Origin: Saprolegnia diclina VS20
Lineage: Eukaryota > Oomycota > Saprolegniomycetes > Saprolegniales > Saprolegniaceae
Length of the DNA: 64,000 nucleotides
NCBI RefSeq assembly: GCF_000281045.1
Contig: NW_008246120.1
Location: 200,011-264,010, forward strand
Direction: 5' to 3'
The translations under genes were made by a program, and so were the position numbers. The notes under the pieces are model-generated. The model was not told the DNA's origin and did not search any database. It was given only the letters and a program-made list of their open reading frames with translations. Below are positions 17,401 to 56,364 of this stretch, piece after piece (positions within the stretch are counted from its first letter, which is position 1; each line of letters opens with the position of its first letter).

Positions 17401-19258
17401 TGCCCGTGAGGCGAAGTGTCGTAAGCTGCCGGAGCTGCAGCAGGGACCCGGGCACACGCTCAAGATGATTGCTGCTCACGTCCAACACGGTGAGCGTCGC
17501 GAGCTTGCCAATGTCCGGTGGCAGGCCCGCGAGTCGGTTGAGTTTCAGGTCCAGTCTACGCAAATTGGCTTCACAAATGATCCCAAAACTCCGTCGTACT
17601 CTTGCAAGAGCGGAAAATGAACAAAGCCGTCCGGAAGGCTCGTGATGCAATTGGCCGGCGCCAAGAGATGCGTAAGGTTTGCAAGCTGACACAAGGCGTC
17701 AGGCAGCGTCCAGAGCCGATTGTGTCCGACATTGAGCACTTGAAGCGCATGCATGAGGCCCTACATCCTCGCTCGCAGCCGTGGTATCGCTTTTGTGTAG
17801 CGTACGAGTGAGACGGGCAGCTCGTCAATACTGTTGTTGGCGACGTTGAGACGCTTGATGTGCATGAAGCGGTCGTAGCGGTCGAGCTCGGGCGGAACAC
17901 TAGTGTGCTATAAAGCTTATCAGTGCGTTTATTAGTATATCGCACCAGGTAAAGGTTTCGTGGGTGCTGTGGTTGCGATACGACGTTCGCGCACCAGGTA
18001 GAATCTCCCAGCCGCCTGGAAAGCTCATCGACGGTGCGTCGGCGGATGGTTCGATGGATTGCTGGTTTGGTGACGGGTGCAGACGTAGCTTTGGTATCGC
18101 GTTCGGGTCGGGCCCGAGGACGTCAGGGCGCTGTCGTGTCACTGTTTTTGTCTTGATGTTGTAGTAGATAACTGCACCACTTGCTGGGTCCGTTGATTCG
18201 GACCAATCGGCGACCGATGACGTTGCTACGGGGTCAGAAGCAGGACCATTGAAACGCCGAGGCGCCGCTGGCATGGGCAGCAGCGCGAGCGACAGCAGCT
18301 CGTTTTTCGCACACGACAAGGTTCGAAGCAAGTGCAGTTCGTAGAGGGCGTTGGGCAGATGCACCAAAAGATTGTGGCTCAAGTCCAAGGTCACGAGATG
18401 GACGAGCCGGTGCAAGAAAGGCGCAGTGCGGAGTCGGTTCCGCGGGACCGAGAGATGCTGCAGCGAGGTTGGGAGCGTCTCGGGCAGCCCGCCAAGTTTG
18501 TTGCAGTCGAGAAGCAGTGTATGAAGCCGGGTCCAGCGGCCGATGTCGTGCGAGAGCGTGATCAAGCTATTTTCGCTAGCGTTGAGCCACTCGCAGCTCG
18601 GAAATGCAGCACAAAAGGCACTCGAGAGCTCACGAAACTCGTTGCGGCTGATGTTGATCTCCTTGATGAAGCGCGCCATTTGCAAGAGAAAGGTCGAAAA
18701 TACCGTGTCCGGGACCAGGTCGATGCGCAGCGCCTTGAGGTCGAGCATGCCGGAGCCGTAGCTTCGACACATGGCGGTTTGAATGGTGCGCGTCTTTTCT
18801 TGGGCTTGAAAGTCGGCGTCGTTCTCGTGCTTGAGCATGTCATCGGCGTGGTGTCGTCGCCGTTCGATGAGCACGGCCATCGTGTTGAGCGTCGGTGGCC
18901 CGGTCGTCGCAAGCCTACTCGAGCAACGACTGAGCCTCGAACGAGATTTCGTTGTGTAGTACCGGGTTTCGAGAAACTTGGTCTTGTACTGCGACGCCTT
19001 TTGCTCGCGAAGGTAGCGCTCGTTGTTGCTCAGCACCTTGGCCTCGTACTTGGTGCTGATCGCATGGATCGTCGCGCGCGCCTGCTCGTAGCTCCCACTC
19101 GCCGCATACTCTTTGTGGATGTTGAGCACCGGCGCCTTGAGCGCGACGCGCTGCCTCGCCTTGGACTCTTCGTCTGGTGGCGTGTACAGGATGTTGTCGC
19201 CGCAGAGCTCATCAAACGGGAACGCATTTGGCGTCGTCGTCGGGTCGGTCGGGTCCAT
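14498..19258 (-). CDS. Large leucine-rich-repeat protein with WW-like modules
   Basis: Ten exons: 19258-17946, 17899-17806, 17760-17600, 17555-17318, 17150-17019, 16973-16477, 16431-15390, 15281-15084, 15027-14857, 14812-14498; frames join to 1386 residues. LRRs of the LPxxLxxLxxLxxLxLxxNxL type occur before and after two WW-like segments. The first (about 351-380) has W352 and YY but Arg where the second Trp should be; the second (about 416-438) has GWEILPG and is interrupted by intron 1. The middle region has Cys pairs (RCGCEDML), followed by a coiled coil rich in Lys/Glu and an acidic tail. A 48-base in-frame segment ending near 15857 could be a further intron. A scaffold role is inferred; the start is shared with a divergent kinase promoter. 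Confidence 0.82.
15282..15389 (-). repeat. AT-rich intron with repeated TATCAATA units
   Basis: This 108-base intron of the LRR/WW gene is far richer in AT than any other intron here and repeats variants of AAGTATCAATAAA. The flanking exons keep frame when it is removed. Confidence 0.6.
17244..17259. repeat. 16-base perfect GC palindrome in an intron
   Basis: CGGGGGGCGCCCCCCG equals its own reverse complement. It sits in the unusually long (167-base) fourth intron of the LRR/WW gene, 17151-17317. Confidence 0.6.
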
Positions 19259-22125: not shown

Positions 22126-23586
22126 CTACTCGGAGTGGCGCTTGCCAAAGCCGTAGCTGGGCGACGAGCCGCCAGCACTCTTGACCTCCATGTGAACAAG
22201 CTGCTCAATGGACGCGGGCGGCGCCGTGAGGTCCGAGTACCGGTACTCGTCCTCGAGCATCTTGTCGGACGGCATTGGGCTAGCAATCGTGCGCGACCGA
22301 CGGCGCAGTGGCGGCGGAAGGAGCTTGATGCGCTCTTCGTAGTCTTCCGAGATGACTTGCATCTTGCGCGCACCTTCAAGGTTCAACGGCGTGTTCGAGT
22401 CAAAGGCCGAGAGCTGCCCGATCGCGAGCGACTTGTAGATGGTGCGCAGGTGAAAGTAGTACTTGGCGTACGACGCGGCCGAGACGCGGACGTTGTACTC
22501 GACGGCCGCCAGGTACAGTAGCTCCAGCGTGTTGATGCGCCGGAGTGGAAACGTGACGTGGCAGATCTTGGAAAAGTCGGCATTGCACATACTGAGGTCG
22601 TCCCAGACCTTGCTGGCCATGACCATGGACGAGAAGAGGATCGCGTGCCAGTTGCCGGCGTGGATCTGCAGCCCTTTGCCCATCGTCGCTTGCAAGAGGC
22701 GCTCGACGTAGATGAGCCCCATGATGATGCACTCCGACTCCATTTGCGCCTTGGTGTGCACTTGGTGCATGAACGACACAATGTCGTCGATCGACGGCAG
22801 CGGCAGCTTCTTGAGCGACGACGCCTGCAGCGCTTCCATCGAGAGAAACCCGTGGAAGCGCGGGTCCGCGGGCAGCGGCGTCGCATGGGCCTCGCGAATG
22901 TGGCCGCGAATGACATGGGCGACGCAGAGCATCGTGCTCTTGACGTCCGGCTTGTTCATCGTGCCCATGCGCACGTAGATCGAGTTGGTGCTGTTCGAGC
23001 GCATGCGCAGTGGCTGCGGCGGCACCACCGCGGTAAACGCCTCGTCGCGGTACGCGCTGCCGTCCGTGAACGACGCCCGCTCGTGCAGCACCGGCGTCCC
23101 GCGCTCGCGGTTCTCTGGAATCGGCGACGGCGGCAGCTTGGACGCGAGCGAGCCATAGACTGGCACGTCTTGGTTCAGGTCTTCTTTTGCCGACAGCGTT
23201 CGAAAGAGCCGTGGCGGGCCCGTCGCGAGTTTCGTGGCAGGCTTGCGGCTGTGCACGGGCGGCGTATCGTTCGTGTCTTCCTTGGCCGAGAGCGTGCGGA
23301 AGAGGCGCGGCGGCCCGGCCGCGATGACAGCCGCGACGTCGTCACGGCTCGCGACGGGCTCGGGCGAGAGCATGCCCGCGCGCAGCTTGTTCTTGATGTT
23401 GTTCTCCATGGTCCGGAAAAAGTGGGACGCCGCCTCCTTCTCGCGCCGGACGATGCAGGGCGGCTTCTTCCACGTCGTCTCGCGCGTAACCGGGTGGTAG
23501 TAGTACGAGCGGCCGGAGCGCGGGCATTGCGCGACCTTCCACTCGACGTCGGCGGCCATCGTCGTCGTCGTCGGTCCCTCGCCCAT
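22126..23586 (-). CDS. WW-domain cyclin (cyclin Y/PHO80-like)
   Basis: Intron-free, 486 residues. An N-terminal WW domain (about 15-43) is complete: EWK, SYYYHPVTRETTW and the final PP. A cyclin fold lies at about 270-400, with YVERLL, the HAILFSSMVMASKVWDD helix and NADFSK, the pattern of cyclin Y and its relatives, which activate PFTK/CDK14-type kinases. Between them, GPPRLFRTLSAKED occurs twice (about 91-104 and 123-136); the RTLS core looks like a basophilic kinase or 14-3-3 site. A WW domain on a cyclin would bind Pro-rich partners. Activity and partner are inferred. Its 3' end faces the kinase gene, 127 bases away. Confidence 0.88.
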   Translation of the reverse strand: MGEGPTTTTMAADVEWKVAQCPRSGRSYYYHPVTRETTWKKPPCIVRREKEAASHFFRTMENNIKNKLRAGMLSPEPVASRDDVAAVIAAGPPRLFRTLSAKEDTNDTPPVHSRKPATKLATGPPRLFRTLSAKEDLNQDVPVYGSLASKLPPSPIPENRERGTPVLHERASFTDGSAYRDEAFTAVVPPQPLRMRSNSTNSIYVRMGTMNKPDVKSTMLCVAHVIRGHIREAHATPLPADPRFHGFLSMEALQASSLKKLPLPSIDDIVSFMHQVHTKAQMESECIIMGLIYVERLLQATMGKGLQIHAGNWHAILFSSMVMASKVWDDLSMCNADFSKICHVTFPLRRINTLELLYLAAVEYNVRVSAASYAKYYFHLRTIYKSLAIGQLSAFDSNTPLNLEGARKMQVISEDYEERIKLLPPPLRRRSRTIASPMPSDKMLEDEYRYSDLTAPPASIEQLVHMEVKSAGGSSPSYGFGKRHSE

Positions 23587-25299: not shown

Positions 25300-28296
25300 T
25301 TACACGACCAGCGTCAGCGGCTCGGGCGTCGCCAGGATCGCGTGCGCTTCGATTACAATGTCGGCGAGTGCGTCGACATCCGCGACAACGTGCTGGATGC
25401 CAAAGCCGAGGCGGAGCGACGTCTTCTTGCGCACGTCGCAGTGAAACACGAGGCGGGACGTTGAAGTCGCGGGGCGGCGCGCGGGCTGCGTGAGGTACTC
25501 TTGGATCGCAGCCGCTTGCGAATGCTGCAGCACAAACGCGTTGGAGATCGTCGCCGGGTCCTGCGTCGCGCGCTGCGTGGTGCTGGCCGAGAAGACCTTG
25601 CCAAGGCGCGCAAAGAACCGATCTTGGAGTCGCAAAACATACGCATGCCGCAGCTGAATCGTCCAGTTGTGCGACGCGTAAAAGGCTTGGACGTCGTTCC
25701 ACTGGCGCAGCGCGTAGTGAAACCCGGGGGTGCCCCCCTGGAACTTGAGGTCGGGCGTGTAGCCGACGACCTTGGTCGGCACATGCGTCGGCGAGAGCAC
25801 CGAGAGGTCGGCGATCCAGCCCGTGTTGGCCGGCGTCCATGACGTCGTGCTCGGAAATGCGATGAAGCCGAGCCCGGGCCCCGCAGTCGCGTGCTTGATG
25901 CCGCTGCCAATGACAAAGAGGTGGGGAAACTGCGACGGCAGCGCGAGCGGGACGTTCTCGAGCGTCTGCGCCACGTCCAGAATGAACATGCTGCTCGTCG
26001 GAAGCGCCGTTGCCACCGACGCAATGCTCGCATCTGACAGCCGAAATTGAAAGTTGGAGTACACAACGCTGGCGTACACCACATCGTAGATGCCATTGGC
26101 CGCCGCGGCCGCCAGACGCGCGCCGTACGTCTCGAACGGCGTCAGCGCAATCGTCTCGACCGTGTGATGCGGCAGCGCGTCCATCTGCCGGGAAAACGAC
26201 AAAAACTCAGCGTCCGAGGTCAGCACCCGCAGCGCCTTGCCATGCGGGTGGCAGCTCAGTAGACGCAAGAGGAACTCGTGGCAGTTGGATCCAAAGTTGA
26301 TGTGGTACGCTGCCGAGGCGACACCGAGCGCCTGCTTGATGTACGCGGCCGCCGTTGGCACGTCGTGCGCAAAGACGTGGTCCCACGACTCGTTGAGCGT
26401 CGACGCGAGTAGCCGATGTGTTCCGACGACGCTATCAAAGGACACGTCGGGTGCGAGACCCATGCCGTACGTGGAAAAGTGGAGCGCTTGCGGGTCCTGG
26501 AGCGCAAGCGACCGGGCAAAGTACGGTCGGAACGGGGACGTCGTCTTGACACCGAGCTCGGCGACGGGTTTTGCCGCCACCTCAACCGCCATGGCCGAGC
26601 GCGGGCACATCAGCTGCTGCCACTGGACACGCTGCTTGAGCTCGCGATGGCGCTGCCGCGCGCCTTCCGAGAGCGTGCGGATGATGCGGCCCTTGAACGA
26701 CTTGTCGACGGCCAGCTGGGCCGCGTCGAGCGAACTCGAGAGCTGCTCTTTCGCGTGCTCGCACGAGAGGTACCGGTTGGCGTCCTTCCAGCCGCGCTCA
26801 AGCATCTTGACCGTGAGCTCTTGGGTCCCGGCGGCGCCCGCGCCCAGCACCATGATCGCGAGGTGCTGGTGGCCAAAGTAGAAGCGTCGAACTGCGTTCT
26901 CAAGCATCTGGATGGCCTGGACGATCTGGATGCACTGGGCGCCCGGCGACACCCGCGACGCAAACATGGTTTGAATCGTTGCGACCAGGTCATGCTTCTC
27001 GGTTTCGTCCTCGGGCTTCTCAGACCGGACTTGGCTCAGCACATGGAGCATGTCGACAAGGCTCGTGGGGTCGACAGTCGACCGCTGGGCGACGCCAACG
27101 AGGCATGTTGGTGCGAGCGGCATGAGGTGTGCGATGCGGCGTCCGAGCTGGCGCAAGCGCACGCTCTGGCCCCCGCTCGCGCCATGCAAGTGGAGCTTGA
27201 GCGTCAAGTAGTCGGCGGCGTCCATCTCGCTCAAGATCGAGATGTGGTCAATGAGATACTCCCAGATCTGGCACGCAAAGCGGTACCGGCGCGCGACGCG
27301 CGTCAGCACGGCCGCGTTCACCGCCGTCGACGCGTTTAGGTCCAAGTGGTCGAGGTCGAATTGCGCAACGTCGAGCTGGCGCTCCATGACGCAGCACCAC
27401 GCCTCCGTGATCTGGTGCACAGTCGCGAAAAAGTGATCTTCGACGAAATCTTGGTCGTCCTCGTCTTGGGTGCAGTGCGCACGCGTGTGCGTCGGCAGTA
27501 CGAGCTTGTCGTACGGCAGATGCAGGCCGTCGGACGCGCCGAGGCCAGGGCCAAAGGGCAGGCCCGAAAAGTGGCAGCTCAAGAGCCCCGAGACGCGCTG
27601 GAGGAGCTCGTGCGGCGGGAAGGATGCGTTTGGCGCGCTGTCGCGCCACCACCAGTGACCGTCGAGAGCCAAGCTCTCCTTGCTGCCGTCGCGCGTGAGG
27701 TCGTACATGGCCGCGATCTGCGCCTTGTCGTTGACGGCCGCGAGGTCCATGTCCATCACCGTGCGCATCATGAGCAGCTGCGCGCTGAGGTTGCGCATGA
27801 CGGCGTCGACGCGCGACGCGTGGTTGACGTACGGCCGGTGCCGGCGAAAGCGCGGCGCCGTCGACTCGACGGTAGCGCCGACGTTGACGTCCATAAACTC
27901 GAGCAAGAGCCGCAGTGTAATCTCAAACGAACTGAGCGCCGGCGCGACGCGGTAGAGCGGACCCGGTGCCGGGCTCAGCGCGACCGGCTCCGAGAGAGGC
28001 GCCGAGACCGACTCGATCGGCTCGAACGGCATCGTCTGCGTCGGCGAGACGTACGACCAGAGACCCCAGACCTTCTCGAGCTCGTGGAGGCGAATGTAGG
28101 ACGCGTACGTGTTGCGGTGCAGGTTGCCAATGTACGTGGCGTAGGCTCCGATGGTCGCTGACGTCGAGGCGCGGCCGATGCTGGCACCGTCGGCGGGCTT
28201 GTTGGTCGATTCAAACGCGCACGAGCCGGCGGCTGCGTCGTCGGCGTAGGCGCACGACGGCGTAGAGGAAGCGGGCGTGGTATCGGATACGGTCAT
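25300..28296 (-). CDS. Tryptophan 2,3-dioxygenase/kynureninase-like fusion protein
   Basis: One uninterrupted frame of 998 residues from ATG 28296. Residues about 60-540 look like tryptophan 2,3-dioxygenase: NTYASYIRLHELE near the start, FFATVHQITEAW with the distal His about 293, GASGGQSVRLRQL (about 370-382; compare SGFQSxxFR in the family), and HQHLAIMVLG (about 475) at the expected place of the proximal haem His. Residues about 590-980 resemble kynureninase, a PLP fold-type I enzyme: LDVAQTLENVPL (Asp about 773) and GSGIKHATAGPG with the presumed PLP Lys about 801. Known family residues include DxAH; here the His is Gln. The pair would act at Trp to N-formylkynurenine and at kynurenine to anthranilate; the formamidase step would be separate. 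No intron or stop separates the domains. Confidence 0.83.
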   Translation of the reverse strand: MTVSDTTPASSTPSCAYADDAAAGSCAFESTNKPADGASIGRASTSATIGAYATYIGNLHRNTYASYIRLHELEKVWGLWSYVSPTQTMPFEPIESVSAPLSEPVALSPAPGPLYRVAPALSSFEITLRLLLEFMDVNVGATVESTAPRFRRHRPYVNHASRVDAVMRNLSAQLLMMRTVMDMDLAAVNDKAQIAAMYDLTRDGSKESLALDGHWWWRDSAPNASFPPHELLQRVSGLLSCHFSGLPFGPGLGASDGLHLPYDKLVLPTHTRAHCTQDEDDQDFVEDHFFATVHQITEAWCCVMERQLDVAQFDLDHLDLNASTAVNAAVLTRVARRYRFACQIWEYLIDHISILSEMDAADYLTLKLHLHGASGGQSVRLRQLGRRIAHLMPLAPTCLVGVAQRSTVDPTSLVDMLHVLSQVRSEKPEDETEKHDLVATIQTMFASRVSPGAQCIQIVQAIQMLENAVRRFYFGHQHLAIMVLGAGAAGTQELTVKMLERGWKDANRYLSCEHAKEQLSSSLDAAQLAVDKSFKGRIIRTLSEGARQRHRELKQRVQWQQLMCPRSAMAVEVAAKPVAELGVKTTSPFRPYFARSLALQDPQALHFSTYGMGLAPDVSFDSVVGTHRLLASTLNESWDHVFAHDVPTAAAYIKQALGVASAAYHINFGSNCHEFLLRLLSCHPHGKALRVLTSDAEFLSFSRQMDALPHHTVETIALTPFETYGARLAAAAANGIYDVVYASVVYSNFQFRLSDASIASVATALPTSSMFILDVAQTLENVPLALPSQFPHLFVIGSGIKHATAGPGLGFIAFPSTTSWTPANTGWIADLSVLSPTHVPTKVVGYTPDLKFQGGTPGFHYALRQWNDVQAFYASHNWTIQLRHAYVLRLQDRFFARLGKVFSASTTQRATQDPATISNAFVLQHSQAAAIQEYLTQPARRPATSTSRLVFHCDVRKKTSLRLGFGIQHVVADVDALADIVIEAHAILATPEPLTLVV

Positions 28297-45968: not shown

Positions 45969-48572
45969 ATGGGCAACACGACATCGTATGGCCTCGCCAT
46001 GATCTCCCTTGGGGTCGCGATGGCCGACACCTACGACGTCATCGTCGTCGGGAGCGGCCCTGGCGGCCTCGTCGCCGCCGAGTACCTCAGCCGGAACGCA
46101 TCGCTCTCGGTGCTCGTCTTGGAGGCTGGTCTCCCAACCCTCGCGGCGTCTGGTGGCAACAACATTCCGGGCTACGCCCAGTCCCAAGGCCTTACAGTCT
46201 TCGACATTCCCGGTGAGTACACCAACATTGCGTTCGGCGGCAACGCTGCGTACCGCTACGGGACCGACTGGGTCTCGTCGCCCACCGGTCTCTACCTTGG
46301 CAAGTGCGTCGGCGGCAGCTCGTCGCTCAACGGCATGCTCTACTTTCGCACGCCTGACTCGTATGTGACGGAAGCGAGCTGGCCCAACGACGTGGCGACC
46401 GTCAACGCTGGCTTCTCCGCGATCGAAACCATGTTTACCTTCGGCTACAACCCGTCGCCCGACGGTGTCCGCTACAACCAACAAGCGTACACCATCATGC
46501 GCGCTGTACTTGGCAATGGCGGCGGGTACACCGAGACGCAAGCCATCAACACCGACCGCAACGCCAAGAGCAAGAGCTACGGCCACCCGCCGTTCGCGAT
46601 CAAGAACGGTCTTCGCGACTCGCCGGCCAAGACATTTCTCGGTGCGGCCAAGGCCCGGCCCAACTTCAAACTCATTTCATCGGCGACCGTCTCGTACATC
46701 ATCCAGTCCAAGGGCACCGCGACGGGTGTCGTCTACACCGTCAACGGCCAGACCGTGACTGCGAGTCTGTCGGGCAAAAGCGCCGTCATTGTAGCCGGTG
46801 GCGCAGCCATGACGCCCAAGATCCTCATGCAGTCAGGCGTCGGGCCGTCGAGCCAGCTCAACGTGCTCAAGAGCCGAGGCAACGCTCCGGGTGTCAGTGG
46901 CGACGCGGCCAACTGGGTCGTCAACGAGAACGTCGGCGACAGCATGTTTGACTCGCAGCAATTGCTCATGACGTTTTCGCGCAACGACATGGTCTCCTTC
47001 TCATACTCGCAGTCGCAAACGGCGGCGATCACGCAGTACATGACCCAAGGCCACAGCGGACCCTGGGCGAGTCCGGACCCGGTTCTGATTGCGTACGAGA
47101 ACTACAACTTTGGGGGTCGGGCGTACCAGTTCCAAGTGACCTCATTCTCGCACGGCTTCAACTGGGGCAGCAACAACCCGACCGAGTTTGGCGTCGCCGT
47201 GTATGTCAACAACCCGATCTCGCGCGACAGCGCACGCTTCAGTGGCGACGGCGGCTACCATCTCGACACGGCGCACAGCATGTACAGCAACCCGACCGAC
47301 CGGGCGGCCGTGGCCAACTACCTCGACAAGCTCCGCGGGTGGATGAGCAGCCAAGGCGTGACGCAGGTCGTACCGAACGCTGGTGTCTCGTCGATCGACT
47401 TTGTCAACGCCAACATCCAAGGCGCCAACCACTACGGTGGTAGCTGCTACGCGTCTGGCGATGGCTCGGACGCCAAGCGGTGTGCCGACGAAACGCTGCG
47501 GGTCGTTGGTGCCAAGAACATTTATGTCGGCGACGCCAGTTTGATGAAGACGGGGACCGTCAACCCGTATGGGTTTATCATGTACGCCGGGTACCAGACC
47601 GGCGTCAACGTCGCCAAGGCCATCGCCTCTGGGTCGACACCCGTGACACCGACGCCGCCTGGCTCGTGCAGCAACCTCCAAAGCGATCTCGACTACTTCG
47701 GCAACGACATCAAGTCGACGTCGCGGGCGTCCGCGAACGACTGCTGCGGCGACTGTGCGGCGACAGCCGGCTGCGCCTTGTACGTGTGGACGGGCGACAA
47801 CGGCGGGACGTGCTGGCTCAAGAGCGCTGCCGGCGCGCCGTCGTCCAAGCCCGGTGCCAAGTCGGGTTTCCGTGGCACCGTGACACCGACGCCACCTGGC
47901 TCGTGCACCAACCTCCAAAGCGATCTCGACTACTTTGGCAACGACATCAAGTCGACGCTGCGGACGTCGGCCAACGACTGCTGTGGCGACTGCGCGGCGA
48001 CAGCCGGCTGCGTCTTATACGTCTGGACAAATTCGGCGGGCGGGACGTGCTGGCTCAAGAATGCCGCTGGCGCCGTCTCGTCCAAGCCGGGGGCCAAGTC
48101 TGGTTTCCGGGACTCCGTGACGCCGACACCAACCGTCACGACGGCACCTCCGCTTGCAGCTTGCGGAGCGCCGCTTGCCAACACGGACTTTGATGGCCAA
48201 GACGTTGGCAATGTGCCGGGTGGGACGCCGGCAGTGTGCTGCGCCGCATGCCAGAGCAACCCAGCATGCAACGCGTACAGCATTTGGAACAACATTTGCT
48301 GGCTAAAGAGCGGCTCCAACGCACCGCGCTCGGCGCTGGGCGTCGTGGCGGCCACCGTCAACAAGTGCTCGGCGCTCGAGTCCAACGTCGACTACTCTGG
48401 CAACGACCTGAGTAACGCGCCGGCCGTCGCAGCAACAGGGTGCTGTGCGCTGTGCCGCAACACATTGGGCTGCAAGGCCTTCTCGTGGTTCCAAAGCGTT
48501 TGCTACTTGAAGAGTGCCAAGGGCGCGTCCATTGCCAAGGCGGGAGTCATTTCGGCCGCGGTCCTTGCGTGA
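45969..48572 (+). CDS. Secreted GMC flavin oxidoreductase with four PAN/Apple domains
   Basis: Intron-free, 867 residues. The ATG at 45969 gives a signal peptide (about 1-19) and the same MGN start as the paralogues; an earlier in-frame start exists at 45927. The GMC domain (about 20-560) has the FAD motif VVGSGPGGLVAAEYLSRN, GGSSSLNGMLYFR, and near the end ANHYGGSC and GTVNPYGFIMYAG, which place the catalytic His and Asn as in cellobiose dehydrogenase. Four PAN modules follow with repeated CC..DC, CWLK pairs, linked by Thr/Pro-rich spacers (PTPPG). The first two are near-identical. Secreted oxidation of sugars or cell-wall oligosaccharides, anchored to carbohydrate by PAN domains, is inferred. 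Confidence 0.88.
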   Translation: MGNTTSYGLAMISLGVAMADTYDVIVVGSGPGGLVAAEYLSRNASLSVLVLEAGLPTLAASGGNNIPGYAQSQGLTVFDIPGEYTNIAFGGNAAYRYGTDWVSSPTGLYLGKCVGGSSSLNGMLYFRTPDSYVTEASWPNDVATVNAGFSAIETMFTFGYNPSPDGVRYNQQAYTIMRAVLGNGGGYTETQAINTDRNAKSKSYGHPPFAIKNGLRDSPAKTFLGAAKARPNFKLISSATVSYIIQSKGTATGVVYTVNGQTVTASLSGKSAVIVAGGAAMTPKILMQSGVGPSSQLNVLKSRGNAPGVSGDAANWVVNENVGDSMFDSQQLLMTFSRNDMVSFSYSQSQTAAITQYMTQGHSGPWASPDPVLIAYENYNFGGRAYQFQVTSFSHGFNWGSNNPTEFGVAVYVNNPISRDSARFSGDGGYHLDTAHSMYSNPTDRAAVANYLDKLRGWMSSQGVTQVVPNAGVSSIDFVNANIQGANHYGGSCYASGDGSDAKRCADETLRVVGAKNIYVGDASLMKTGTVNPYGFIMYAGYQTGVNVAKAIASGSTPVTPTPPGSCSNLQSDLDYFGNDIKSTSRASANDCCGDCAATAGCALYVWTGDNGGTCWLKSAAGAPSSKPGAKSGFRGTVTPTPPGSCTNLQSDLDYFGNDIKSTLRTSANDCCGDCAATAGCVLYVWTNSAGGTCWLKNAAGAVSSKPGAKSGFRDSVTPTPTVTTAPPLAACGAPLANTDFDGQDVGNVPGGTPAVCCAACQSNPACNAYSIWNNICWLKSGSNAPRSALGVVAATVNKCSALESNVDYSGNDLSNAPAVAATGCCALCRNTLGCKAFSWFQSVCYLKSAKGASIAKAGVISAAVLA

Positions 48573-53712: not shown

Positions 53713-56364
53713 TTACATGAGAACCGTGGCCGAGATGACGTTGCCATTCGCCTTGGTGGCGCTCTTGCTGCTCTTGAAGTAGCACGTACCCTGGTACCAT
53801 GAGAAGGCACCGCACCCATTCATGTTGCGGCATTTTGCGCAGCAGTCGTCGGCCGTCGACGCGGCGGCACTACCAATGTCGCTGCCCACGTAGTCTGTGC
53901 CAATCTCGAGCGCCGAGCACTTGTTGACGACCGCCGCCGTCGTACCCGGGGCAGCCTTGCGTCCGTTGTGGCCGCTCTTGAGCCAGCAAATGTTGTTCCA
54001 GAGGCTGTAGGCGTTGCACGCCTTGTTCTTCTTGCACGCGGCGCAGCAGTCGCCGGGGTTGGTTCCTGGCACGTTCCCGACGTCTTGGCCTGCAAAGTCC
54101 GTGTTGGGTTCGGGAATACCGCAGCCCGAGGCAGATGCGTCGATGCTACCGGCCTTGGCGCCAGACTGCGTCGACTTGGGGCCGCGACCACTCTTCAACC
54201 AGCACATTCCGCCGTTGTAGTTCGTCCAGACGTAGACGGAGCAACCTGGCTTGGCCGCGCAGTCGGCGCAGCAGGCGTCCACCGACGACCGCGCCGTCGA
54301 TCCAATGTCGTTGCCGGCGTAGTCGACGTCGTTCTCGACTGCCGAGCACGACACGTCGCCGCCAGGAATCGGCGTTGGCGTGACCACGGGGGTCGGCGTC
54401 GGTGTGACAACGGGAGCCGTCGTCGGTGCCGGTGTCGTTGCTCCCATGCTACCAGACTTGGCGCCGAGTTGTGTCGACTTCGCGCCACGCGCGTTCTTGA
54501 GCCAGCACGTGCCACCGTTGTGCTTGTTCCAGACGTACAAGGTGCACCCGGGCTTGGCTGCGCAGTCGGCACAGCAAGCGTCTGCCGATGCGCGACTCGT
54601 GGCACCGATATCGTTGCCGTAGTAGTCGACGTCGTTCTCAAAGTCGGTGCACGTTGCCAGCGTCGGTGGCGACGTCGGCGGTGTCACTTCACTGTAGCCA
54701 ACAATCGTCTTGGCAACGTTGACGCCGGTCTGGTGCCCAGCGTACATAATAAAGCCGTACGGGTTGACCGTGCCTTCCTTCATCAAGCTGCCATCACCGA
54801 CGTAAATGTTCTTGGCGCCCACAACGAGAAACGTCTCGTCCGCGCAGCGCTTCGAGTCTGTCTTGTCGCCCGACGTGTAGCAGCTGCCGCCGTAGTGGTT
54901 GGCTCCTTCGACCTTCTTGTTAACAAAGTCGGTTGACGCAACATCCTTGGCCGGAATGACCGTCGTGACACCTTGGGCGCTCATCATGCCTCGCAGCTTT
55001 TCGACGTAGTTGGCCAGCGCCGCCCGGTCGCGTTGGTCGCTGTACATGCTGCGCGCCGTGTCGAGGTGGTAGCGCCCGTCGCTCGTGAAGCGCGCGCTGT
55101 CGCGCGAGATCGGGTTGTTGACGTACACCGCGACACCAAACTCGGTCGGGTTGTTGCTGCCCCAGTTGAAGCCATGGCAGAAAGTCGTGACCTGGAACTG
55201 GTACGCCCGGCCGTTTACGTTGTAGTTGTCATACGCGATCTGAACCGGGTCCGGACTCGACCATGGTCCGCTGTGGCCTTGCGTCATGTACTGCGTGATC
55301 GCCGCCGTCGGACTCTGCGTGTGGGCAAACGTCTTCATGTCCTTGCGAGAGAAGGTCATGAGCAGCTGGTGTGTGTCAAATAAGCTGCTGCCGACGTTCT
55401 CGTTGACGACCCAGTTGGCCGCGTCACTGCTCACACCCGGAAAGTTGCCGTTGGCCTTGAGCAAGGTGAGCTGGCTCGACGGACCGACGCCCGACTGCAT
55501 GAGGATCTTGGGCGTCATGACGGCCGAACCCGCGACGACGACCGCGCCCCGCGACGAGAGGTCGACCGTGACGGTCTGGCCGTTGGTGGTGTAGACCACA
55601 CCGGTCGCAACACCCTTGGACTGGATGATGTACGAGACGGTTGCCGACGAAATGAGCTTGAAGTTGGGTCGGGTCTTGGCCGCACCGAGAAATGTCTTGG
55701 CCGGCGAGTCGCGGAGACCGTTCTTGATCGCAAACGGCGGGTGGCCGTAGCTCTTGCTCTTGGCGTTGCGGTCGGTGTTGAGGCTGTTGGACTCGGTGTA
55801 GCCGCCGCCGCCCAAGACGTTGCGCATGATGTTGTACGCCTCTTGGAGATACCGGCTGCCATCGGGCGACGGGTTGTTGGTCGAAGTAAACATCGTCTCG
55901 ATCGCCGAGAAGCCAGCGTCGACAGTCGCCACGTCGTTGGGCCAGCTTGCTTCCGTCACGTACGAGTTGGGTGTGCGAAAGTAGAGCATACCGTTGAGCG
56001 ACGAGCTGCCGCCGACGACTTTGCCGAGGTAGAGACCAGTGGGCGACGCGACCCAGTCGGTGCCCATGCGGTACTTGTTGTCGCTTTGAAACGCGACGTT
56101 CGAGTACTCGCCAGGAACGTCAAAGCGCGTAAGACCTTGCGACTGGGCATAACCCGGGATGTCAGTGCCACCAGTGGCCGCGAGGGACGGGCCGCCGGCT
56201 TCGAGGACGAGCACGGACGTAGACGCGTTGCGGCTGAGATACTCGGCGGCAACGAGGCCGCCGGGGCCGCTGCCAATGATGATGACGTCGTACGCCTCGC
56301 CGACGGCGACGTGCACAACGAATGCTACGACGATGAGCGTCGTGGACGAGATATGGTTGCCCAT
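53713..56364 (-). CDS. Secreted GMC flavin oxidoreductase with four PAN/Apple domains (inverted paralogue)
   Basis: Intron-free, 883 residues. A signal peptide (about 1-22) precedes the FAD motif IIGSGPGGLVAAEYLSRN, KVVGGSSSLNGMLYFR, and ANHYGGSC and GTVNPYGFIMYAG with the catalytic His/Asn. Four PAN domains lie at about 578-640, 676-728, 749-805 and 816-866, with paired Cys and CWLK motifs. A Thr/Pro linker separates the first two. It lies in the opposite orientation to the other two copies, and is close to them in sequence, so it arose by local duplication and inversion. A secreted carbohydrate oxidase is inferred. Confidence 0.88.
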   Translation of the reverse strand: MGNHISSTTLIVVAFVVHVAVGEAYDVIIIGSGPGGLVAAEYLSRNASTSVLVLEAGGPSLAATGGTDIPGYAQSQGLTRFDVPGEYSNVAFQSDNKYRMGTDWVASPTGLYLGKVVGGSSSLNGMLYFRTPNSYVTEASWPNDVATVDAGFSAIETMFTSTNNPSPDGSRYLQEAYNIMRNVLGGGGYTESNSLNTDRNAKSKSYGHPPFAIKNGLRDSPAKTFLGAAKTRPNFKLISSATVSYIIQSKGVATGVVYTTNGQTVTVDLSSRGAVVVAGSAVMTPKILMQSGVGPSSQLTLLKANGNFPGVSSDAANWVVNENVGSSLFDTHQLLMTFSRKDMKTFAHTQSPTAAITQYMTQGHSGPWSSPDPVQIAYDNYNVNGRAYQFQVTTFCHGFNWGSNNPTEFGVAVYVNNPISRDSARFTSDGRYHLDTARSMYSDQRDRAALANYVEKLRGMMSAQGVTTVIPAKDVASTDFVNKKVEGANHYGGSCYTSGDKTDSKRCADETFLVVGAKNIYVGDGSLMKEGTVNPYGFIMYAGHQTGVNVAKTIVGYSEVTPPTSPPTLATCTDFENDVDYYGNDIGATSRASADACCADCAAKPGCTLYVWNKHNGGTCWLKNARGAKSTQLGAKSGSMGATTPAPTTAPVVTPTPTPVVTPTPIPGGDVSCSAVENDVDYAGNDIGSTARSSVDACCADCAAKPGCSVYVWTNYNGGMCWLKSGRGPKSTQSGAKAGSIDASASGCGIPEPNTDFAGQDVGNVPGTNPGDCCAACKKNKACNAYSLWNNICWLKSGHNGRKAAPGTTAAVVNKCSALEIGTDYVGSDIGSAAASTADDCCAKCRNMNGCGAFSWYQGTCYFKSSKSATKANGNVISATVLM

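Follow-up and report, generated by a model that had tools for sequence, protein, structure and literature searches.

The window analysed here, a 64,000-nucleotide stretch of the oomycete Saprolegnia diclina VS20 (contig NW_008246120.1 of assembly GCF_000281045.1, positions 200,011 to 264,010 of the forward strand), contains a gene that joins a domain apparently belonging to the tryptophan 2,3-dioxygenase (TDO) superfamily to a kynureninase-like domain predicted to use pyridoxal phosphate (PLP). The gene consists of an intron-free frame of 998 codons on the minus strand, which runs from an ATG at 28296 to a stop codon at 25300 with zero internal stops (Table 1). An earlier interpretation made from the letters of this DNA (hereafter, the sequence-only reading) had proposed one polypeptide with neither stop nor intron between its halves, which the complete frame confirms; all five motifs that it quoted are present in the protein. 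The fusion protein has a single matching place across the 54.15-Mb, 169-contig source genome, and its full-length model had a mean pLDDT of 73.1 and a pTM of 0.52.

Table 1. Features of the fusion gene, with positions in the window.
Feature	Position	Strand	Basis
Fusion coding sequence, single frame of 998 aa	25300..28296	minus	Stop codon 25300-25302; open reading frame, and both halves joined in P0002-P0007
N half, residues 45-540, TDO/Hs1pro-1-superfamily region	26677..28164	minus	Pfam; profile matches to solved TDOs
PF07014 Hs1pro-1_C match, residues 259-492	26821..27522	minus	E 1.7e-9, 38.0 bits, cut-off 29.3
PF03301 Trp_dioxygenase match, residues 271-387	27136..27486	minus	E 7.7e-9, 35.8 bits, cut-off 34.9
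His294, aligned with TDO distal His	27415..27417	minus	His in 12/13 intact oomycete domains (gap in 1) and 27/27 TDOs
Arg382, aligned with TDO carboxylate-binding Arg	27151..27153	minus	Arg in 13/13 intact oomycete domains; TDOs Arg 12/27, Lys 15/27
His476, aligned with TDO heme-ligand His	26869..26871	minus	His in 13/13 intact oomycete domains and 27/27 TDOs
Variable linker, residues 541-584	26545..26676	minus	Homologue alignment; low pLDDT at 538-543 and 558-585
C half, residues 585-998, kynureninase-like class-V PLP domain	25303..26544	minus	Profile and fold comparison
Asp774, predicted PLP-ring Asp of DxxH/Q motif	25975..25977	minus	Residue alignment
Gln777, replacing kynureninase His	25966..25968	minus	Gln in 10/10 oomycete sequences; His in 88/88 bacterial and 5/5 canonical
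Lys801, predicted Schiff-base Lys for PLP, with Ile before it in place of Tyr	25894..25896	minus	Residue alignment
Arg962, aligned with conserved C-terminal Arg of kynureninases	25411..25413	minus	Arg in 103/103 sequences

Both halves were found in one chain in six further proteins (P0002–P0007), which are 49–88% identical to the fusion over the aligned part. The closest database relative is P0002 from Saprolegnia parasitica (SPRG_01493; 88% identity over 100%); the others include proteins from Achlya hypogyna (P0003; 75%), Thraustotheca clavata (P0004; 70%, a partial record that begins near residue 49), Aphanomyces stellatus (P0005; 51%), and Aphanomyces invadans (P0007; 49%), as well as P0006, with 53% identity over the best local 54%. 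We take these four genera to be Saprolegniales. Since six further proteins carry the same pair, the fusion is a genuine conserved protein and not an assembly join, the outcome by which the sequence-only reading would have fallen and which the survey of oomycetes rules out. That the gene is an artefact of assembly or of the gene model has a practically negligible probability, given the joined homologues from several species and the single frame without introns; we found no point that would support it. In a search of open-licence PubMed Central text, none of the titles and abstract openings listed names the fusion, in line with the earlier statement that no description of it was known.

Other arrangements of the two domains also occur in oomycetes. 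Separate TDO-like proteins are present in Aphanomyces and Achlya (P0008–P0011 and P0024; P0025 presented a Hs1pro-1 match only), and two proteins of Aphanomyces astaci (P0014 and P0015) are apparently pieces. In P0012 (A. stellatus, locus 23498) and P0013 (Aphanomyces euteiches), neither of the two TDO-aligned histidines of Table 1 remains in the N half, and the C half keeps its core; the gene for P0012 and that for the separate P0008 (locus 23499) are probably neighbours, as their locus numbers are consecutive and their longest contigs agree in length. Proteins such as P0012 and P0013 would be expected if one half of the fusion were non-catalytic, with a regulatory or scaffolding role; for the fusion itself this seems very improbable, because it retains the core residues of both halves, which are conserved across genera.

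A profile built from five related N domains and compared with solved structures matched ten sequences, all of them TDOs (nine with E ≤ 3.1e-6 and one with E = 0.4). In a MAFFT alignment of 13 intact oomycete domains with 27 bacterial TDOs, His294, His476, and Arg382 fall at positions that, from what is known of TDO, we take to be those of the distal histidine, the heme-ligand histidine, and the carboxylate-binding arginine; the heme histidine was placed through this alignment, the A3–A8 profile comparison having aligned 105 columns and stopped short of it. The carboxylate position is occupied by lysine in 15 of the 27 TDO genes aligned (from loci L084–L111). The genome scan found no match to PF03301 in the source genome besides that of the fusion.

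Several observations weigh against calling this half a TDO. The fusion clears the PF03301 gathering cut-off narrowly (35.8 vs. 34.9 bits), and among the other fusions P0006 lies above the cut-off (38), P0002 is level with it (34.9), and four of the six fall below it (P0003, 30.5; P0004, 32.3; P0005 and P0007, 27.2 each). Hs1pro-1_C is the higher-scoring Pfam family on the N half (38.0 vs. 35.8 bits); at E ≤ 0.01, PF07014 also matched 15 of the 26 members of alignment A5 (eight being bacterial PLP proteins). The TDO equivalog model TIGR03036 was missed by a wide interval (26.1 vs. 390.7 bits), and two Bdellovibrionota TDOs were likewise below its cut-off (173.3 and 170.1). The column of the GTGG-loop threonine of TDO is a gap in all 13 oomycete domains, and the fold-search results for the full model (VIA and 50 Foldseek rows) cover the C half and PLP enzymes only. 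The N half belongs to the TDO superfamily, with an apparently intact heme site and a changed loop. Of the claim that this half is TDO-like, the superfamily relationship stands, through PF03301 and the solved TDOs, whereas identity as a TDO is not supported, as Hs1pro-1_C scores higher and TIGR03036 fails.

The C half had to be placed less directly. Pfam matched 0 families on this half alone, and the kynureninase model TIGR01814 gave no match to the fusion at E up to 10. Because the A2 profile was weak against solved structures (best match 1ecx, E = 0.011), a bacterial family (alignment A4) was needed as a bridge; the C-half profile matched this family over 379 columns (100% probability, E = 5e-56), and the family profile in turn matched the kynureninase 1qz9 best among solved structures (E = 3.4e-16; next, 4e-5). 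Foldseek with the C-half model (mean pLDDT 79.4, pTM 0.82) placed 1qz9 first (7.2e-15; next, 1.1e-12), and with the full-length model kynureninase was again first and the 50 rows shown were PLP enzymes. The oomycete C domains form one clade (support 0.996) on a long branch beside the bacterial set; this set is made up of eight proteins and of the 80 loci that lie closest to a single query, and broader sampling could alter the placement.

Residues of the C half were compared among 10 oomycete sequences, 88 bacterial sequences (80 loci and eight proteins, some near-identical), and five canonical kynureninases. The PLP lysine, the ring aspartate, and the C-terminal arginine, whose position we take to be that of the substrate-carboxylate arginine, are kept in all three sets (10/10, 88/88, and 5/5). 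The replacement of the histidine of the DxAH motif by glutamine, to which the sequence-only reading had drawn attention, proved to be general in oomycetes, where it occurs in 10 of 10 sequences, and occurs in none of the bacterial or canonical ones (D774 and Q777 are numbered as alignment index plus 585). The residue before the PLP lysine is likewise changed in all 10 oomycete sequences, to isoleucine (8) or valine (2); the tyrosine found there is replaced in none of the others. The third position of the YKY core of the bacterial family is histidine in oomycetes, and a second copy of the DVAQ motif lies within the N half. As the glutamine and the isoleucine or valine are strictly kept, we infer an altered function rather than decay, and the chemistry of the oomycete C half may have shifted.

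These two substitutions count against a kynureninase, as do several broader comparisons. In VIA geometry, kynureninase ties with the cystine C–S lyase C-DES, PvdN, and others. Among six scanned members of the bacterial family, NCBIfam models for cysteine desulfurase/selenocysteine lyase matched all six and were best in five, while the kynureninase model matched two and was best in one, all matches being far under the cut-offs; two family members are named selenocysteine lyase in their source records. The source genome also encodes a canonical kynureninase elsewhere (274.6 bits vs. a cut-off of 246.4). The C half is a class-V PLP enzyme whose family, as yet without a name, lies closest to kynureninase by profile. 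The earlier description of it as kynureninase-like is thus borne out in that 1qz9 is nearest to the profile of its bacterial relatives and first in Foldseek, and needs correction in that the half belongs to a separate family without a TIGR01814 match. As defining features of both TDO and kynureninase are missing from its sequence, the fusion is classed with neither; an ordinary kynureninase fused to an ordinary TDO was considered and is ruled out by the failure of both equivalog models.

When bacterial and archaeal genomes were scanned for the C-half family, at least 556 confirmed loci were obtained, the best 80 of which were used in the locus analyses. By profile, 15 of these 80 loci have a TDO-like open reading frame immediately upstream in the same orientation; a stricter motif test passed 13 of them (in 12 the two frames overlap by 8 bp, and in one they lie 3 bp apart), missing L069, which is cut by a contig end, and L076. 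TDO is present in 29 of 30 genomes bearing family loci. The units read are apparently of two genes, and the next genes are mostly on the opposite strand. A survey was then made of 290 genomes of Bdellovibrionota, which we take to be the phylum of a Bacteriovorax record; for most of these genomes we know of no predatory lifestyle. The family was found in 94, TDO in 201, and both in 93, and TDO lies directly upstream of the family gene in 61 of the 83 genomes for which both positions were listed and not in the other 22 (the TDO position was not listed for 10 further genomes with both genes). In the Bdellovibrio bacteriovorus genome (locus L081) both genes are present and non-adjacent. All 16 gammaproteobacterial genomes with the family carry TDO, and among the 80 loci no TDO frame was found within the fetched flanks of the gammaproteobacterial ones. 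These gene pairs strongly support a predicted link of the fusion to tryptophan degradation, which the sequence-only reading had proposed for both halves; the match between a fusion in one lineage and paired genes in another is strong evidence of joint action by the two proteins.

The formamidase step that lies between TDO and kynureninase had been passed over in the earlier reading and proves to be the point of interest. Among Bdellovibrionota, the formamidase family PF04199 occurs in 11 of the 93 genomes with TDO and the C-half family versus 49 of the 53 in which TDO is accompanied by canonical kynureninase alone. Canonical kynureninase was found in 56 of the 290 genomes, in one genome only together with the family. 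Of the genomes sampled for 3-HAO, none of 40 with the family and 33 of 39 with canonical kynureninase gave a match; these 33 matches served as the positive control, and the profile gave no match in 14 control genomes. A further, unexplained arrangement is represented by 55 of the 201 TDO genomes, which have neither the family nor canonical kynureninase and of which 42 carry PF04199.

Of the readings considered, the most probable one, to which we give an even chance, is that the fusion is a bifunctional enzyme carrying out two consecutive steps on an indole amino acid, in the simplest case L-tryptophan. The N-terminal heme domain, whose heme and substrate residues are kept, would open the indole ring with O2 to give an N-formylkynurenine-type product, and the C-terminal PLP domain would then cleave this product at its side chain, yielding alanine and an anthranilate. 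The latter would probably be N-formylanthranilate, because a KynB-type formamidase is rare among the Bdellovibrionota that carry the pair. In its specific form, which we put forward tentatively and with some doubt, the proposal is of a formamidase-free pathway in which a TDO-type oxygenase is paired with an N-formylkynureninase that would convert N-formylkynurenine to N-formylanthranilate and alanine; the bacterial version would be a two-gene unit, found in predatory Bdellovibrionota among others, and the Saprolegniales would carry a derived, fused version. The joined frame and its conservation, the family relationships, the pairing of the bacterial genes, and the pattern of absences are observed, and the two catalytic activities, the bypass of formamidase, and any channelling between the halves are inferred. 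NAD-independent use of tryptophan, redox signalling, and depletion of host tryptophan, which the sequence-only reading also put forward, would be further putative roles.

Several observations count against such a pathway. The formamidase search covered the PF04199 (KynB) type only. The Fisher tests of co-occurrence ignore the kinship of genomes, and many Bdellovibrionota genomes, like many named loci, are probably metagenome assemblies, so that some of the absences and some of the exclusion may come from gaps in the assemblies and from lineage. Among the 16 gammaproteobacterial family genomes, canonical kynureninase is present in eight and PF04199 in four; with canonical kynureninase present in the source genome as well, the family is not a plain substitute for it everywhere. 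The heme half might thus still yield N-formylkynurenine for a separate formamidase, with the PLP half acting as a divergent kynureninase that releases anthranilate. Such a route, which we hold to be rather doubtful, would agree with the aspartate, histidine, tyrosine-lysine, and arginine kept in 88 of 88 bacterial sequences and with the restricted formamidase search, but fits poorly with the PF04199 counts given above and with units that look two-gene. The source genome presented a PF04199 cyclase/formamidase match (G000:C34:195585-196109, minus strand) inside a 4441-residue open frame.

The formamidase-free proposal also has to be weighed against a change of chemistry in oomycetes, where the substrate of the pair could be a different indole amino acid, or the PLP half could have moved towards C–S lyase or desulfurase chemistry, in a route to a specialised metabolite. 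The DxxH to DxxQ and tyrosine to isoleucine or valine changes would suit this, and in alignments C-DES and a NifS-like protein carry glutamine at the same motif; the VIA tie with C-DES, the NCBIfam leaning of the bacterial family to desulfurase models, the two selenocysteine lyase names, and the canonical kynureninase of the source genome point the same way. A search for 3-HAO gave no match in the source genome, where genes may be concealed by introns, and its controls did not include a eukaryote; a search of that genome for IDO matched none of its control genomes and so carries no weight. We nevertheless consider a change of this kind unlikely, since the PLP half is most closely related to TDO-paired bacterial proteins and remains fused to a TDO-superfamily half whose active residues are conserved.

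The bacterial family bears on a gap described for predatory bacteria. In a 2015 study (PMC4646340), TDO was reported in 14 of 14 predator genomes and as the top marker gene for predators. According to that study, obligate predators gave no pathway gene besides TDO, so that either the route or the use made of N-formylkynurenine was unknown; among the possible next steps it mentions that kynureninase might turn N-formylkynurenine into formyl-anthranilate. The reaction itself is therefore not a new idea. As B. bacteriovorus has both TDO and the kynureninase-like family, the family is a candidate for the step missing after TDO in obligate predators. The fusion and the gene pair together yield a guess at the function of a widespread unnamed PLP family, and if its members do cleave N-formylkynurenine, the kynurenine pathway would have a working shortcut.

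Other multidomain genes are found in the window. Two encode a GMC oxidoreductase domain joined to PAN-type domains (45969–48572, plus strand, and 53713–56364, minus strand; four matched stretches each); the proteins are 69% identical to each other, and the best solved match of the first is cellobiose dehydrogenase (E = 1.4e-45). On the minus strand, one protein combines a WW domain with a cyclin domain (22126–23586), and another combines leucine-rich repeats with a WW match below the cut-off (22.6 vs. 26.9 bits; 17900–19258).

Compared with known systems, the N half shares with TDO (PF03301, TIGR03036) the distal and heme-ligand histidines, the carboxylate arginine, and the HQ..E.W and ASG.QS motifs, but differs from it in scoring just above the Pfam cut-off and far below the equivalog cut-off, in having an additional N-terminal region, and in lacking the GTGG-loop threonine. 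The Hs1pro-1 C-terminal family (PF07014), known from plants, is the top-scoring Pfam family of this half, a likeness seen by profile; the fusion differs from that family in being joined to a PLP enzyme. The C half shares with kynureninase (TIGR01814; 1qz9) the aspartate, lysine, and arginine, and has it as top Foldseek match and, through the bacterial family, as nearest solved relative by profile, but differs from it in the missing TIGR01814 match and in the histidine to glutamine and tyrosine to isoleucine or valine changes. C-DES and SufS-type desulfurases resemble the C half in fold class, in a tied Z in VIA, in the glutamine of the motif, and as the best NCBIfam match of most bacterial members, but are weaker than kynureninase by profile against solved structures (E ≥ 4e-5 vs. 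3.4e-16). The bacterial family A4, with its HSHHxWPDV and DGYH motifs, resembles the C half in a full-length profile match and in its partnership with TDO; it differs from the oomycete proteins in keeping the histidine and the tyrosine and in being encoded, in the loci read, by a gene separate from that of TDO.

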